From an uncultured Chryseobacterium sp. (GTDB taxonomy: Bacteria; Bacteroidota; Bacteroidia; Flavobacteriales; Weeksellaceae): 64,000 bases of DNA. The position numbers and the translations under genes are program-made. The notes under the pieces were generated by a model. It was not told the origin of the DNA, ran no database searches, and saw only the letters and a program-made list of their open reading frames with translations. The DNA lies in NCBI GenBank assembly GCA_913776245.1, contig CAJYLO010000002.1, positions 1 to 64,000 on the forward strand, read 5' to 3'. Positions 52,723 to 62,050 of this stretch are shown piece after piece; within the stretch, counting starts at the first letter, position 1, and each line of letters starts with the position of its first letter.

Positions 52723-52743
52723 TTATATTATCTAATTATGGCG

Positions 52744-52775
52744 CAAAAATAGAAATAATTATCTTAATTATACAA
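52744..52775 (-). promoter_or_regulatory. Promoter of the arginine operon
   Basis: Minus-strand TTG (52773-52775) with 21 bases to TATTTTTG (52744-52751), a good match to the Bacteroidota consensus. The start codon is about 20 bases downstream. Confidence 0.68.
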
Positions 52776-52782
52776 ATAAAAA

Positions 52783-52796
52783 AGATAATATTATCT
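52783..52796. promoter_or_regulatory. Palindrome AGATAATATTATCT in the arg / InsA-like divergent region
   Basis: A perfect 14-bp palindrome just upstream of the arg -33 element. A near copy (TAATAATATTATCT, 52813-52826) and a half-like AATAATTATCT (52755-52765) lie on either side. Such spacing suggests an operator set controlling the divergent genes; the regulator is unknown. Confidence 0.55.
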
Positions 52797-52858
52797 GTTA
52801 AATTTACATTAATAATAATATTATCTTTATTAAAAAAAATAATATTGCTAAATTATTA

Positions 52859-52866
52859 TATATTTG
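52859..52866 (+). promoter_or_regulatory. -7 box of the InsA-like gene
   Basis: TATATTTG matches TAnnTTTG, 16 bases before the ATG at 52883. Confidence 0.5.
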
Positions 52867-52882
52867 CTAAAAAAATATAGTT

Positions 52883-53308
52883 ATGGAAAATCAATGTCCA
52901 AAATGCAGCAATCAAAACATTTCTAAAAGCGGAATCATAAAAGGAAAACAACGGTTCTACTGCAAAAACTGCAATTACTACTTTACTGTTAAAAAATTAG
53001 GAAAACAAATTGATGACTACTACGTTACTAAGGCTTTACAGCTCTATCTGGAAGGATTAAGCTTCAGAGAAATTGAAAGAATCATTGGCGTTTCCCACGT
53101 CAGCATCAGTTCCTGGATTAAGAAATATAATATTACCAGACCGCCACATTCAGAATTCCATCCCGTTTATAAAGTCTTGAAACAAAATGAATTGATAGAA
53201 TACATTTCGCAAGAAAATAATCTTGAAAACTCAGGACTGATCATTACTCAGTTTGCCGATAAGTATATGTTAATCAAATGGGAACGATTTAAAAAAGATT
53301 CAAGATAA
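52883..53308 (+). CDS. Orphan IS1 InsA-like zinc-ribbon/HTH protein
   Basis: A 141-residue protein. The first 35 residues are a zinc ribbon (CPKCSNQNISKSGI, FYCKNCNYYF) and residues about 45-90 an HTH (ALQLYLEGLSFREIERIIGV, SHVSISSWIKKYN), as in InsA of IS1. No DDE transposase partner or terminal inverted repeats are found around it. A C-terminal extension (LIEYISQENN, LIITQFADKY) is unlike InsA. It therefore reads as a domesticated DNA-binding protein, possibly regulating the divergent arginine operon or the acetate genes downstream. Confidence 0.75.
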   Translation: MENQCPKCSNQNISKSGIIKGKQRFYCKNCNYYFTVKKLGKQIDDYYVTKALQLYLEGLSFREIERIIGVSHVSISSWIKKYNITRPPHSEFHPVYKVLKQNELIEYISQENNLENSGLIITQFADKYMLIKWERFKKDSR

Positions 53309-53424
53309 AGGGAAAAAGATACAACTAACTATACTATTAGCATTAATATATATTAAATTTTTGTAAACAAAATATTAATAACAATTTGGCAATCACAAAA
53401 TAAACACCAAATTTTTATTAATAA

Positions 53425-54804
53425 ATGAAGAAAATTCTCACTTTTATAGGATTAGCTTTAATCAGCTCTTCTCTATATTCTCAAGGCTCACCAGATTACG
53501 GCAGTGGATTAAAACTAAATCTCAATCCGGAAGGTGACAAGTATGTAAGATTTATTCTTTGGAACCAGATCTGGTTGAGAAATACGGATATGAATCCAGG
53601 AACTCTGGTTTCTGACGAAGCCACAAAAAATACCTGGAACATTGGAAACCGAAGACTGAGAGCGCTTGCCTATGCACAAATTACCAAAAGGTACATGATT
53701 TTGATGCACTTTGGGATCAACAATCAGACTTTTATTAATGGCGGCGGATCCGGAACAAGCGGAACAGGCGGCTATGGAAACGGTAAAAAACCACAAATGT
53801 TTTTCCACGATGCCTGGAATGAATATGCAGTTGTTTTACCAGGAGAAGCGGGAAAATTCAGTTTAAGCTTAGGAGCCGGCCTTCATTATTATATGGGACT
53901 TTCCCGGATGACAATGGCTTCAACACTTAATTTCCTGACTGTTGACTCTCCTATTTTCACATGGCCTCTGATTGATAACTCCGACCAATTCGCGAGACAA
54001 ATGGGAGTTTTCGCCAAAGGAAAATATGGCAAACTGGAATACCGATTCAGTTTAAACAAACCGTTTGCAACCAACCTTACACCAGTCGATGTTACGAATC
54101 CGGCCGCAAGAGTTGCCGTTGACAATAACGGAAATCCGGAATTCTCAAAAGCCGGTTATGTGGAATACCAATTCCTTGATTCGGAATCCAATCTTTTGCC
54201 TTTCAAAGTTGGTTCATATTTAGGGACTAAAAAAGTTTTCAATATCGGAGCAGGTTTCTACCATCAGAAAGACGGCACAAGAACTTCCGTTAATTCCCAA
54301 ATTGAAAAACACGACATTGCGCTTTATGCTGTTGATGCTTTTGCAGACCTTCCGCTTGGAAACTCCAAACATAAAATGGCGCTTTCTGCTTATACCGGAT
54401 TTTACAATTACAATTTCGGCCCGAACTATCTCAGAAATCTCGGCATTATGAATATTGGAACTTCTGATCCTTCATTCGTTGGTGATAAAGCGATTGCAGG
54501 CGCCGGAAATCTTCAGCCGATGATCGGAACGGGAAACATCTATTATCTGCAGGCCGGATTACTCTTGCCAAGCAATGCTGACAAACCAAAAATCAGAATC
54601 CAGCCTTTCGCAGCCTATACCAATAAAAATTTCAAAGCTTTGGAAAATTCTTCTTCGCAATTTGATATCGGTGCAAACTGGTTTATAGACGGACATCACG
54701 CAAAACTGACAACACAGTATTCTACACGGCCAACTTACACAAGTGCTTCGGCAGAACCGAAATCAAAAGGAGAATTCATCCTTCAGTTCCAGATTTATCT
54801 ATAA
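53425..54804 (+). CDS. Outer-membrane porin
   Basis: A 459-residue protein with signal peptide (ending SLYSQ) and a long series of amphipathic strands ending in a C-terminal aromatic-hydrophobic strand (GEFILQFQIYL), typical of a beta-barrel. YVRFILWNQIWLRNTDMNPG and FHDAWNEYAVVL are prominent. Position before a carboxylate-type symporter, an acetate-type sensor kinase and acs suggests it admits small acids through the outer membrane. Specificity is inferred. Confidence 0.82.
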   Translation: MKKILTFIGLALISSSLYSQGSPDYGSGLKLNLNPEGDKYVRFILWNQIWLRNTDMNPGTLVSDEATKNTWNIGNRRLRALAYAQITKRYMILMHFGINNQTFINGGGSGTSGTGGYGNGKKPQMFFHDAWNEYAVVLPGEAGKFSLSLGAGLHYYMGLSRMTMASTLNFLTVDSPIFTWPLIDNSDQFARQMGVFAKGKYGKLEYRFSLNKPFATNLTPVDVTNPAARVAVDNNGNPEFSKAGYVEYQFLDSESNLLPFKVGSYLGTKKVFNIGAGFYHQKDGTRTSVNSQIEKHDIALYAVDAFADLPLGNSKHKMALSAYTGFYNYNFGPNYLRNLGIMNIGTSDPSFVGDKAIAGAGNLQPMIGTGNIYYLQAGLLLPSNADKPKIRIQPFAAYTNKNFKALENSSSQFDIGANWFIDGHHAKLTTQYSTRPTYTSASAEPKSKGEFILQFQIYL

Positions 54805-54833: not shown

Positions 54834-56414
54834 ATGAGCGATTCACATCACGTACAGTACGAGAACCTGAGCGACAAGCAAAAAAACCGCACCATTTGGA
54901 GCGTGATTATGGCTTCATCTCTCGGCACCCTTATCGAATGGTATGATTTCTATATCTTCGGAAGTCTGGCAATTGTCCTAGCCACAAAATTCTTTCCGGC
55001 AGATAATCCAACAGCAGCTTTCCTATCAACTTTAGCAACATTTGCGGCAGGTTTTGTGGTGAGACCTTTCGGAGCATTATTCTTCGGAAGGCTAGGAGAT
55101 TTAATCGGCAGAAAGTACACATTTCTGGTAACGCTTCTGATTATGGGATTCTCGACATTTCTTATCGGATGCATCCCAAGTTATGAAACCATTGGCTTTA
55201 TGGCGCCGGTTTTAGTTTTAATCCTGAGACTTTTACAAGGTCTTGCTCTCGGAGGCGAATATGGCGGCGCGGCAACTTATGTAGCAGAGTATGCACAGCC
55301 CGGAAGACGCGGCTATTGGACTTCTTGGATCCAGACTACGGCAACAGCAGGTCTGTTCATCTCATTAATCGTCATTTTGATTACAAAAACATCACTTTCT
55401 ACAGAGGAATTTGATCGCTGGGGATGGAGAGTTCCGTTCTGGATTTCAATTCTAATGGTAATCGTTTCTTATTTCATAAGAAAGAATATGAAAGAATCGC
55501 CACTTTTTGCAAAAGCGAAAAGCGAAGGAAAAACATCAACCAATCCATTGAAAGAAAGTTTCGGGAACAGGTTTAATTTTAAATTCGTTTTGCTCGCACT
55601 TTTCGGAGCAGCGATGGGACAAGGTGTGATCTGGTACACAGGACAATTCTACGCAATGAGTTTTATGCAAAAAGTAATGAACATAGACACCACCCAGGTA
55701 GATTCCCTGATGGCTATCGGATTATTCCTGGGAACGCCATTCTTCGTATTCTTCGGCTGGCTGTCTGATAAAGTCGGAAGGAAAGCTGTGATGATGACGG
55801 GAATGCTCATTGCCATTTTAGCTTACAGACCTATTTACAGCGCAATGTTCAATTCTGTGGATGTTGCTAAAAAAGAAGTTGCCAGTGGCGGAATTACAGA
55901 AAAAAGAACTGTAAAGGTTCATGACAAAATTGCTACAGACAGCCTGATTACTTTCCATAAAGAAATTGCTTACACCGATGGAACTCTAATGAAAAAAGAC
56001 AGTATCATCCATTGGTCAGCAGCCGGACCCGTGATGAAAGATGGAAAAATTGAGGAACCTAAAGTTACAAAATCGGTCAAAATCAACGATGACACCAAAT
56101 GGTATTTAGTATTCCTGGTGTTTATTCAGGTGATTTTTGTAACGATGGTTTATGGTCCGATTGCAGCTTTTTTGGTGGAAATGTTTCCTGTGAGAATCCG
56201 ATACACCTCTATGTCACTGCCTTATCATATTGGAAATGGTGTATTTGGCGGATTATTGCCGGCGGTTGCAACTTATCTGGTGACCACAGGAAAAGATGCC
56301 GGACACGAAGGCTGGTACCTGGAAGGTTTATGGTATCCCATCGGTGTAGCTGCCGTATGTCTTGTGATCGGTCTGGTTTACATCAAAAACAAAAATCAGA
56401 ATATCCACGAGTAG
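54834..56414 (+). CDS. MFS symporter, metabolite:H+ (MHS) family with a periplasmic-loop insertion
   Basis: A 526-residue transporter. IEWYDFYIFGSLA, RPFGALFFGRLGDLIGRKY and RLLQGLALGGEYGGAATYVAEY are MHS hallmarks (ProP, KgtP, ShiA). After helix 9 a hydrophilic stretch of about 75 residues (approximately 342-420, KKEVASGGITEKRTVK to EEPKVTKSVKIND) intervenes before helix 10. This loop is normally short. It may bind substrate or contact the porin. An organic acid such as acetate is a likely substrate by context. Confidence 0.88.
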   Translation: MSDSHHVQYENLSDKQKNRTIWSVIMASSLGTLIEWYDFYIFGSLAIVLATKFFPADNPTAAFLSTLATFAAGFVVRPFGALFFGRLGDLIGRKYTFLVTLLIMGFSTFLIGCIPSYETIGFMAPVLVLILRLLQGLALGGEYGGAATYVAEYAQPGRRGYWTSWIQTTATAGLFISLIVILITKTSLSTEEFDRWGWRVPFWISILMVIVSYFIRKNMKESPLFAKAKSEGKTSTNPLKESFGNRFNFKFVLLALFGAAMGQGVIWYTGQFYAMSFMQKVMNIDTTQVDSLMAIGLFLGTPFFVFFGWLSDKVGRKAVMMTGMLIAILAYRPIYSAMFNSVDVAKKEVASGGITEKRTVKVHDKIATDSLITFHKEIAYTDGTLMKKDSIIHWSAAGPVMKDGKIEEPKVTKSVKINDDTKWYLVFLVFIQVIFVTMVYGPIAAFLVEMFPVRIRYTSMSLPYHIGNGVFGGLLPAVATYLVTTGKDAGHEGWYLEGLWYPIGVAAVCLVIGLVYIKNKNQNIHE

Positions 56415-56748: not shown

Positions 56749-56830
56749 AGAAAATCCCGGATGAATCTATTGATAATTGGTGAATAATAAATGTTTTATT
56801 CATCAATTATCTTTTATCAAAAAATCATTT

Positions 56831-57025
56831 ATGAAGAAAAGACACGAACAGAAACTGATTATTCTGAGCTTTGGATTATTAATTTTATTCAGCGCTCCGA
56901 TAATACTTTTGTTCAATAGCGAAAAGGAAGTGCTCGGGTTTCCCTTGATCCATGTTTACATCTTTGCGGTTTGGCTTTTCTCTGCGCTCACTTCATTAAT
57001 CATTTTAAAAAAATACGATGAATAG
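56831..57025 (+). CDS. Small two-helix membrane protein preceding the symporter-kinase
   Basis: A 64-residue protein with two membrane helices (LIILSFGLLILFSAPIILLF, LIHVYIFAVWLFSALTSLII). Start is ATG 56831 (MKKRHEQK), not the ORF-track ATG 56777, whose extra 18 residues are intergenic-like. It overlaps the next gene by 8 bases. It resembles the small partner proteins of sodium:solute symporters, suggesting a subunit of the following sensor. Confidence 0.7.
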   Translation: MKKRHEQKLIILSFGLLILFSAPIILLFNSEKEVLGFPLIHVYIFAVWLFSALTSLIILKKYDE

Positions 57026-59681
57026 CCTTGCATTATTTGCCGTTGTGATTCTATATCTTGCCCTTCTTTTTATTGTGGCTCACAGCGCCGAAAAAAAGAA
57101 GAGTAAAATATGGGTGAACAATCCTTACATCTATGCATTATCGCTTGCTGTTTATTGTACCGCCTGGACCTATTACGGAAGCATTGGTGTTGCTGTAAAT
57201 AACGGTCTGGATTATCTCCCGATTTACATTGGTCCAATTATTATAATCCCAGCCTGGATTTATATCAATCGAAAAATAATCCGTATTGCCAGGATCAATA
57301 AGGTCAGTAGTATTGCAGATTTCATTTCCCTACGCTACGGGAACAGCCGTTCGTTTGGAGCTATTATTACATTAGTCTGTATTTTTGGGATCATTCCGTA
57401 CATCGGACTACAGATTAAAGCGATTTCCGAAACGTTCCATTTGGTGACCAACACACCAATTTCTCAAAATATTTTTACTGATAATGCGACTTATGTTGTC
57501 GTACTTTTAGCATTATTCTCATCCTATTACGGAACACGTTACGTTGATGCATCCGAAAAGAGATTAGGAATCATTTCCGCTGTGGCACTGGAAAGTTTCT
57601 TGAAATTAATTTTCTTAATCGTTCTTGGCATATTTGTTACATTTTTTGCTTTTGACGGATTTTCTGACATCTATGAAAAAGCGAGTCAGTTCTCCGATTT
57701 TAAAGCTAAAAATACCTTTTCCGGCTTGGAAGGAAGCATCAACTGGATCATTCTGTGCCTGATTTCTGCCTCAGCCATATTCCTGTTACCCAGACAATTT
57801 CACACGACTATTGTTGAGAACAGGCAGGAAAAACATCTGAAAACAGCGATTTGGTTTTTTCCGCTTTACCTCCTGATCTTCAACGTATTTGTATTCCCGA
57901 TTGCCTGGGGCGGACGCATCATTTTCGAAGGTCAAAACGTGAATCCGGAATTCTACTCCATTCTCATTCCGCAGCATTTTAACAATCAACTGATTACAGT
58001 TCTGGTTTTCCTTGGCGGACTGAGTTCTTCGATCTCAATGGTCATCATTTCAAGCATCACATTATCGGTTATGCTTTCCAATAATCTGATTATTCCTTAT
58101 GGCTGGCTGGAAAAACTAAAATCGGACAACGACATCCAAAATACCAGAAATATCACGAATATCAGAAAAGTCAGCATTTTTATCCTGATTGTCACTGCAT
58201 TTGTTTTTTACAAATTTTTCATACTCAGAAACAGCCTTTATTCAGTTGGGTTGATTTCGTTCGTTGTGATTTCTCAGCTCGGACCTTCCTTTTTCGGAGC
58301 CATTTTCTGGCGAAGAGGAAGTTACAAAGGCGCAGTGACAGGATTGATCGCAGGATTGATCATCTGCTATTTCGGGTTGATTATTCCACAATATTACTTT
58401 TCTTACAATCAGGAATTCAAAGGATTTCTGCGAGATATGTACAACTGGTTCAGCTTTTTCAATATTCCTTACCTCAGTAGTATTTCGCAGATTTTTTTCT
58501 GGTCAATTTTAGTAAATTTATCATTATTTGCTATTATTTCGGTTAGCCAGAAAGGTGATTACCGCGAGCGTAATTTTGCTGAGATCTATATTGATGTTGA
58601 TAAATACATTCAGAACCACGAAAATGCATTTATCTGGCGCGGAAAAGCCTATGTTTCCGACATCCGAAATATCCTGATCAAATTTCTCGGAGAAAATAAG
58701 ACCGAACAGGCGCTTCGAATTTTCAATCTTAAATACAACATCGATACCAGAACTGAAACTGCCGACGCAAGATTCATTAAGTTTTCCGAGAATCTTCTGG
58801 CGGGCAGAATCGGGACCGCGTCCGCTAAAATCCTTATTGAAGGTGTAGCGCACGAAGATAAAATTTCTCTAAAAGAAGTTTTGGAAATCCTTGAAGAATC
58901 CAAGGAAAACATCAGCCTGAACAAGAAACTCACTGAGCAAAGCCGCGCACTGAAAGAACTTTCCGAAGAATTGAGCTCTGCCAATGAAAACCTGATCTTC
59001 AAGGACAAACAGAAAGATGATTTTCTGGATTCTGTAGCACATGAACTGCGAACGCCAATTACAGCGATTCGGTCTGCCGGAGAAATTTTGGCGGACGATG
59101 ATGATATTCCGCTGGAAATCAAAAGGGAATTTCTTAACAATATTATTACGGAGTCTGACCGATTGAATGAAATCATCAATGATATCCTTTACCTCGACAA
59201 ATTAGAACACGGCGAGATCATTCTGAATATTCAAAATAACGATATCATTTCTACTTATGAAAAAGCATTAAGCCCGATCAGCCATCTGCTTGCGCAAAAG
59301 AACATCCATCTGAGTATGGTTAATCTTCTGCACGAAACCGTTTTCAGGTATGATGAGTCAAGACTGATCCAGGTTTTTCAGAACATTCTCGGCAATGCGC
59401 TTAAATTCACCGATGATCAGGGAACAATACAGGCTAAATTCCAGGAAAAAGATGATAAGCTTGTGATTTCGATCTTCAATACCGGCAAGCAGATTCCGGA
59501 AGAAGACCTCAACCTGATCTTTGACAAATTTTATCAATCGAGGAATCAGAACATCAGAAAACCTCTGGGAAGCGGACTCGGGCTTTCGATATGCAAAAAA
59601 ATAATGGAAGCTCATCTTGGAAGCATCTCAGCTAAAAATATGGAAATCGGTGTAGAATTTCAGATCTTAATGAAAAAGTAG
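57018..59681 (+). CDS. Sodium:solute symporter-histidine kinase (CbrA/CrbS-like)
   Basis: An 887-residue fusion. Residues about 1-510 are a 13-helix SSS transporter-like domain (SKIWVNNPYIYALSLAVYCT, ISSIADFISLRYGNSRSFG, FSSYYGTRYVDASEKRLG). A linker of about 100 residues and a coiled coil follow. HisKA has H675 in SVAHELRTPITAI; HATPase_c has NILGNALKFTDD and GSGLGLSICKK. In the CbrA and CrbS relatives the transporter part senses or carries a nutrient; with acs two genes later, acetate is the likely cue, by inference from CrbS/CrbR. Confidence 0.9.
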   Translation: MNSLALFAVVILYLALLFIVAHSAEKKKSKIWVNNPYIYALSLAVYCTAWTYYGSIGVAVNNGLDYLPIYIGPIIIIPAWIYINRKIIRIARINKVSSIADFISLRYGNSRSFGAIITLVCIFGIIPYIGLQIKAISETFHLVTNTPISQNIFTDNATYVVVLLALFSSYYGTRYVDASEKRLGIISAVALESFLKLIFLIVLGIFVTFFAFDGFSDIYEKASQFSDFKAKNTFSGLEGSINWIILCLISASAIFLLPRQFHTTIVENRQEKHLKTAIWFFPLYLLIFNVFVFPIAWGGRIIFEGQNVNPEFYSILIPQHFNNQLITVLVFLGGLSSSISMVIISSITLSVMLSNNLIIPYGWLEKLKSDNDIQNTRNITNIRKVSIFILIVTAFVFYKFFILRNSLYSVGLISFVVISQLGPSFFGAIFWRRGSYKGAVTGLIAGLIICYFGLIIPQYYFSYNQEFKGFLRDMYNWFSFFNIPYLSSISQIFFWSILVNLSLFAIISVSQKGDYRERNFAEIYIDVDKYIQNHENAFIWRGKAYVSDIRNILIKFLGENKTEQALRIFNLKYNIDTRTETADARFIKFSENLLAGRIGTASAKILIEGVAHEDKISLKEVLEILEESKENISLNKKLTEQSRALKELSEELSSANENLIFKDKQKDDFLDSVAHELRTPITAIRSAGEILADDDDIPLEIKREFLNNIITESDRLNEIINDILYLDKLEHGEIILNIQNNDIISTYEKALSPISHLLAQKNIHLSMVNLLHETVFRYDESRLIQVFQNILGNALKFTDDQGTIQAKFQEKDDKLVISIFNTGKQIPEEDLNLIFDKFYQSRNQNIRKPLGSGLGLSICKKIMEAHLGSISAKNMEIGVEFQILMKK

Positions 59682-59725: not shown

Positions 59726-60088
59726 ATGAAAAAAATATTAATCGCGGACGATGAACATAAAATTCTGATGTCTCTGGAATACAGCTTCAGGAAGCAGGGT
59801 TATGAAGTGTTTATTGCAAGAGACGGAACCGAAGTTCTGGAACTGCTGAAAACCATAACGCCGGACGTCATTCTGCTCGACATTATGATGCCGAAACTTG
59901 ACGGTTACAGTACATTGAAAGAAATCAAGTCAATGGAAAATCTCAGCCGGACCAGGGTGATCTTGCTGAGCGCAAAAACCAATCCGAAAGATATTGAAAA
60001 GGGAATGGGATTGGGCGCCGATGCTTATGTCACCAAACCCTATTCCATCAAGAAGCTGATTCAGCAGATCGAGGAAATGCTTGAGTAG
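59726..60088 (+). CDS. Receiver-only response regulator
   Basis: A 120-residue CheY-like receiver. The acidic pocket is ADDE near the start, the phosphoacceptor is D52 in ILLDIMMPKLDGY, and VTKPYS holds the conserved Lys. No DNA-binding output domain is attached, unlike CrbR of Vibrio. It is the evident partner of the upstream kinase, 44 bases away. How its phosphorylation changes transcription is not evident. Confidence 0.92.
   Translation: MKKILIADDEHKILMSLEYSFRKQGYEVFIARDGTEVLELLKTITPDVILLDIMMPKLDGYSTLKEIKSMENLSRTRVILLSAKTNPKDIEKGMGLGADAYVTKPYSIKKLIQQIEEMLE

Positions 60089-60142: not shown

Positions 60143-62050
<1,908 letters not shown>

Follow-up and report, generated by a model that had tools for sequence, protein, structure and literature searches.

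The acetate module of an uncultured Chryseobacterium sp. is headed by a small gene for an InsA-like protein, and this protein is probably (we put it at about 0.6, from sequence comparisons) the module's dedicated transcription factor and, as a separate protein, the DNA-binding output of a CrbSR-like system. The gene lies in the window, which is the whole stretch of 64,000 nucleotides that was analysed. When a receiver has no output domain, which protein takes its signal to DNA? Here we offer one candidate for that protein, and predict both a docking motif and an operator. If this reading is right, a transposon regulator has been fixed as a core metabolic switch, and it suggests how many Bacteroidia might control acetate use.

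An acetate module with a stand-alone receiver

The regulator gene is followed by six genes, giving the order regulator, porin, MFS transporter, small membrane protein, kinase, receiver and acetyl-CoA synthetase:

52883..53308 (+): InsA-like regulator gene, 141 aa, heading the acetate module (open reading frame, profile matches, synteny)
53425..54804 (+): outer-membrane porin, module member (weak ExtI porin match, synteny)
54834..56414 (+): MFS metabolite:H+ symporter, module member (TIGR00883, 366 bits, under the cut-off; synteny)
56828..57025 (+): small membrane protein, weakly DUF3311-like (E 0.07; synteny)
57018..59681 (+): histidine kinase with an SLC5-like N-terminus, CrbS-like (HisKA and HATPase_c matches, N-terminal profile search)
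59726..60088 (+): stand-alone receiver response regulator, 120 aa (receiver match, relatives)
60143..62050 (+): acetyl-CoA synthetase gene, acs (synteny)

The N-terminus of the kinase is taken here to be of the SLC5/STAC type, and the product of 60143..62050 is named as an acetyl-CoA synthetase by its family. No receiver domain was matched in the kinase, so it is not a hybrid. The response regulator is a stand-alone receiver of 118-140 aa in every module locus read, which leaves the InsA-like protein as the one evident DNA binder among the module's products. Probably it is the partner that lends DNA binding to this output-less response regulator.

The first-pass annotation placed the gene at 52755-53308. 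The end is correct, but the open reading frame begins at 52883, and a start at 52755 takes in promoter DNA. That annotation also set the gene between arginine and acetate neighbours and named synteny with acs as a check. The acetate side holds widely, the linkage of regulator and acs being fixed across orders, while arginine neighbours are confined, among the loci listed, to Epilithonimonas and close genera. In a first set of loci the regulator heads the module or directly precedes acs in 37 of 37, some of these loci being without single module members at the query's sensitivity. The same is true of the Epilithonimonas, Chryseobacterium and Kaistella loci that are listed and long enough, and the same arrangement is present in other orders of Bacteroidia.

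Sampling at three ranks recovered the gene in 209 of 299 genomes for the family, 77 of 298 for the order and 33 of 346 for the phylum, the last including a few IS1 or partial matches. It is a conserved ortholog, mostly single-copy, and is under strong purifying selection: the median dN/dS over 81 regulator coding sequences is about 0.02 (0.021 for the C-terminal part), a rough median since pairs with saturated dS were dropped. In the phylum sample of 346 genomes, all 25 kinase-bearing members of the class carry the regulator gene, and one class member (G695) carries the regulator gene but no kinase. Outside the class, twelve genomes have the kinase and no intact regulator ortholog, and most of the nine loci read there hold receiver-only response regulators. 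The receiver thus has, or had, other partners, and the InsA-like protein was probably recruited after the receiver already stood alone. Conversely, one genus keeps the regulator beside acs without kinase or receiver, so the regulator can work without them.

Several loci depart from this plan in other ways. In many (L081 and L061, for example) a second acyl-CoA synthetase gene, 35-41% identical to acs and absent from the window, lies between receiver and acs. L244 (G044) is a degraded module, which keeps kinase and receiver, has lost regulator and porin, and has an MFS gene without its start. A stretch between regulator and porin (53340-53424 in the window) is conserved in the 10 Epilithonimonas and Chryseobacterium loci compared, and within it lies a 17-bp inverted repeat at 53373-53423. 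Open-frame lengths in the matches listed were also used to look for a fused receiver and InsA-like protein, and they gave one long frame, in G612 (L337).

A probable domesticated InsA

The protein can be divided into the following parts:

52895..52987 (+): C4 zinc ribbon, residues 5-35 (NF050000, 35.8 bits)
53015..53125 (+): helix-turn-helix, residues 45-81 (AF2 helices 45-56, 61-68 and 72-81)
53144..53296 (+): C-terminal domain, residues 88-138, probably a decayed InsB start, catalytic Asp unconserved
53279..53290 (+): W-E-R-F motif, residues 133-136, proposed receiver contact (covariation with the presence of the response regulator)

The zinc ribbon, C5-P-K-C8...C27-x-x-C30, scores 35.8 bits against a cut-off of 28 for NF050000, and all four cysteines are invariant in A1. 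The IS1 transposase profile NF033558 matches the whole regulator at 75.5 bits (E 5e-21) over about 109 residues (5-113), below the family cut-off of 100 bits. Pfam InsA and helix-turn-helix matches are mostly sub-threshold yet consistent, and helix-turn-helix families match 18-20 of 20 members. The InsA-type zinc ribbon and helix-turn-helix recognised at first pass are thus borne out by NF050000 and NF033558, and the extra C-terminal part described with them is present at about residues 88-141. For this domain AF2 predicts a b-a-b-b order with moderate confidence, and the fold is uncertain because the AF2 alignment was restricted to close relatives of the regulator. A fold search with the AF2 model gave no significant match, the best resemblance being to Lrp/AsnC ligand-binding regulators (E 0.015, not significant). 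Elsewhere, in L313 (G680; 1554-2738, +), an apparent LacI-type repressor continues the reading frame of an InsA-like zinc ribbon, possibly a further reuse of this transposon domain.

The InsB catalytic domain is absent, since the protein ends at 141 aa and the porin gene then follows. Inverted repeats flanking the gene were looked for and none were found, and a search of this genome at E<=1e-30 likewise gave no IS1 transposase. The absence of InsB and of terminal inverted repeats, both stated at first pass, therefore holds, and the search for an active or decaying IS element came back empty. In a small tree the InsA-like rows form one group (98/94) to which a single IS1 InsA stands nearest (97/94), so that the regulator is monophyletic in the phylogeny the first-pass annotation had called for; given the short alignment, the midpoint root and one long branch, the tree is only consistent with descent from IS1. 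A PSSM of the C-terminal part, compared with InsB starts, scores higher than all 300 shuffles for the IS1 of L373 and is equalled or exceeded by 1 of 300 for that of L314, these being the nearest IS1 sequences; for four other IS1 the similarity is weaker or not significant. By inspection, the first catalytic Asp of InsB aligns with a variable position of the regulator. This suggests an origin from InsA plus a truncated InsB, and the best reading of these comparisons is a domesticated IS1 InsA whose C-terminus resembles the decayed first strands of InsB. The earlier proposal of a transposon-derived transcription factor likewise finds support in the conservation, the acetate-module synteny, the dN/dS of about 0.02 and the monophyly.

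A tandem repeat before the start codon

Just 5' of the regulator start codon lies a tandem repeat, TGCTAANNNNNTATA-N4-TGCTAANNNNNTATA, which is likely to be the operator, in place of the palindrome discussed below:

52846..52879 (+): proposed operator, two direct 15-bp units with a 19-bp period
52846..52860 (+): operator unit 1, TGCTAAATTATTATA
52865..52879 (+): operator unit 2, TGCTAAAAAAATATA
52859..52866 (+): TATATTTG, candidate -7 box overlapping the operator (inferred from sequence)

The -7 box of Bacteroidota has the consensus TAnnTTTG, which TATATTTG fits. The operator is placed 4-37 bp before the regulator start codon. The element common to the upstream DNA of distant relatives consists of two direct units TGCWAANNNNNTATA with a 19-bp period. 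Among 74 whole genomes, 32 of the 38 with the regulator have a single operator at one mismatch or fewer and the 36 without the regulator have none, and with up to two mismatches the operator is found in 27 of 29 genus representatives against 0 of 5,800 shuffled sequences; both figures are partly circular, because the pattern was read from overlapping loci, and absence from genomes without the gene is partly trivial, because gene and operator are adjacent and are deleted together. A reversed-pattern control gave one match over the 74 genomes. The held-out loci, from another order, are the only ones independent of those used to define the pattern. Genome-wide matches sit at the regulator promoter, and in G716 between regulator and porin. 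In the rearranged loci L358, L359, L361 and L363 the operator lies between divergent acs and regulator, and in L235 it precedes the porin and not the regulator.

The palindrome probably belongs to the arginine side

The arginine side and the regulator diverge from an intergenic region of 160 bp (52723-52882). An AT palindrome with near copies had been noticed there at first pass, and it is confirmed: AGATAATATTATCT is exact at 52783-52796 and nearly repeated at 52813-52826. In the window AATATTATCT occurs four times against 0.25 expected (0 of 100 shuffles as high), and three of the four copies are in this promoter. In the whole genome the exact palindrome occurs once, with two one-mismatch copies, one of them inside a coding sequence.

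The palindrome was considered as the regulator's own site and rejected. Nine Epilithonimonas genomes are without the regulator and the block up to the receiver, so that the arginine-side GNAT gene adjoins acs, and they retain the palindrome (exact in 7 of 9, with 1-2 mismatches in the rest). In Chryseobacterium, the AGGTAAWWTTATCT site occurs mostly in loci with adjoining arginine genes and is missing from those without. Looser sites of this style precede the GNAT gene elsewhere. Being kept without the regulator and fading without adjacent arginine genes, the palindrome is best assigned to the arginine side; in the window, the palindrome and its near copies (52723-52830) appear to be part of the arginine-side promoter. 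The link between regulator and palindrome drawn at first pass is thus not supported, nor is one to the arginine genes, which over most of the range do not adjoin the regulator.

Covariation of receiver, motif and operator

Where the receiver is present, 112 of 115 loci have both the W[ED]RF motif and the operator; two of the three exceptions have an altered motif and one is without the operator. All seven receiver-less loci, which represent two separate lineages (the one genus and G695), are without W[ED]RF and without the operator, and owing to relatedness these covarying loci amount to few independent events. The held-out loci mostly behave in the same way. All nine with module neighbours keep W[EQ]R[FL], and their operators stand at 0-1 mismatch in five, at three mismatches in three and as an indel variant in one. 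In the eight held-out loci without the module, which include at least one true IS1 (L373) and a partial match (L372), the operator and a W[EQ]R[FL]-type motif are both absent. The first-pass suggestion that the InsA-like protein may supply DNA-binding output to the neighbouring response regulator is strengthened by the receiver-only form of the latter and by this covariation.

A sister InsA-like family (f79, with L366, L369 and L370) has a similar C-terminus without the WERF motif or a receiver, so the C-terminal domain is not only a receiver contact. An HU-like gene lies upstream of its members. The next gene downstream is of outer-membrane type in both L366 and L369, and L366 has uppS- and bamA-like genes as well.

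Proposed mechanism and alternatives

A bolder reading, which we hold tentatively and rate a little short of an even chance, is that the response regulator is split: the receiver, standing alone, takes its DNA-binding half from a transposon protein that has been domesticated, and the co-evolving receiver, C-terminal docking motif and tandem operator hold the arrangement together across the class Bacteroidia. In the main reading, the SLC5-type kinase would sense acetate status and phosphorylate the receiver, which would then make contact with the W-E-R-F end of the C-terminal domain in the InsA-like protein. This contact would shift the regulator's seating on the pair of 15-bp repeats in its promoter, thereby switching the module. 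Binding to the repeats, contact with the receiver and acetate as the signal are all inferred. Since the repeats overlap the likely -7 box, we lean slightly towards repression that the phosphorylated receiver lifts, rather than activation.

The regulator could instead act autonomously, its own C-terminal domain sensing a small metabolite while kinase and receiver act elsewhere. The genus and the genome G695 that keep it beside acs without kinase or receiver, the similar C-terminus of family f79 in a different context, and the weak Lrp/AsnC resemblance all point this way, but the receiver-less loci are just those that have lost the conserved C-terminal end and the operator, and we consider this alternative unlikely. 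Less probable again is a regulator that merely represses itself, as InsA does on IS1, with the module not under its control and the linkage historical. The short distance from operator to the regulator's own start codon would fit, as would a separate conserved stretch before the porin; on the other hand, the operator of L235 precedes the porin instead of the regulator, several loci have it between divergent acs and regulator, and the linkage to acs outlasts rearrangement.

That the regulator acts at the AT palindrome to control the divergent arginine operon is very improbable: the palindrome does lie within the shared promoter, but the nine genomes without the regulator keep it, it decays where arginine genes are not adjacent, and over most of the range these genes lie away from the regulator. 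That the gene is an IS1 relic, decaying or active, carried by chance is scarcely credible. Its homology to InsA is the point in favour, set against a conserved gene with a dN/dS of about 0.02, neither InsB nor terminal repeats, and a synteny fixed across orders.

Comparison with known systems

In the open-access literature no account of the regulator or its operator was found, and nothing relevant on an InsA-derived regulator of acetate genes or on a domesticated IS1 transcription factor; subscription papers were mostly outside the search. As in IS1 InsA (NF033558), a zinc ribbon is joined to a helix-turn-helix, but unlike IS1 the regulator has neither a catalytic domain nor mobility signals, and it is a single copy at a fixed locus. 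InsA represses IS1, and binding of the regulator near its own promoter would be a parallel. Two weaker likenesses concern the helix-turn-helix and the segment that follows it. FevR (NF050017) resembles it there in 20 of 20 members, but the regulator scores 30 bits against a cut-off of 180, and the zinc ribbon has no match; the MerR-type DNA-binding domain of CarA (PDB 2jml) is similar at E 0.003, again leaving the zinc ribbon unmatched.

TldR proteins are transposon-derived, RNA-guided transcription factors (PMC13418256). They too are bacterial transposon proteins turned regulators, but no guide RNA is invoked for the InsA-like regulator. Another close parallel is CrbS/CrbR (MxtR/ErdR), the acetate two-component system of Vibrio and Pseudomonas, in which the kinase CrbS is a hybrid and CrbR, a regulator of the LuxR family, binds DNA at an imperfect inverted repeat (PMC5715377, PMC5436829). 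In both cases an SLC5-type histidine kinase and a response regulator are tied to acetyl-CoA synthetase. Here, in contrast to the hybrid CrbS, the kinase and the receiver are encoded as two proteins, and the response regulator, at 118-140 aa, is a receiver without the LuxR-type DNA-binding domain of CrbR. In place of CrbR and its inverted repeat, an InsA-like protein, encoded beside a direct repeat, is the sole candidate for DNA binding.
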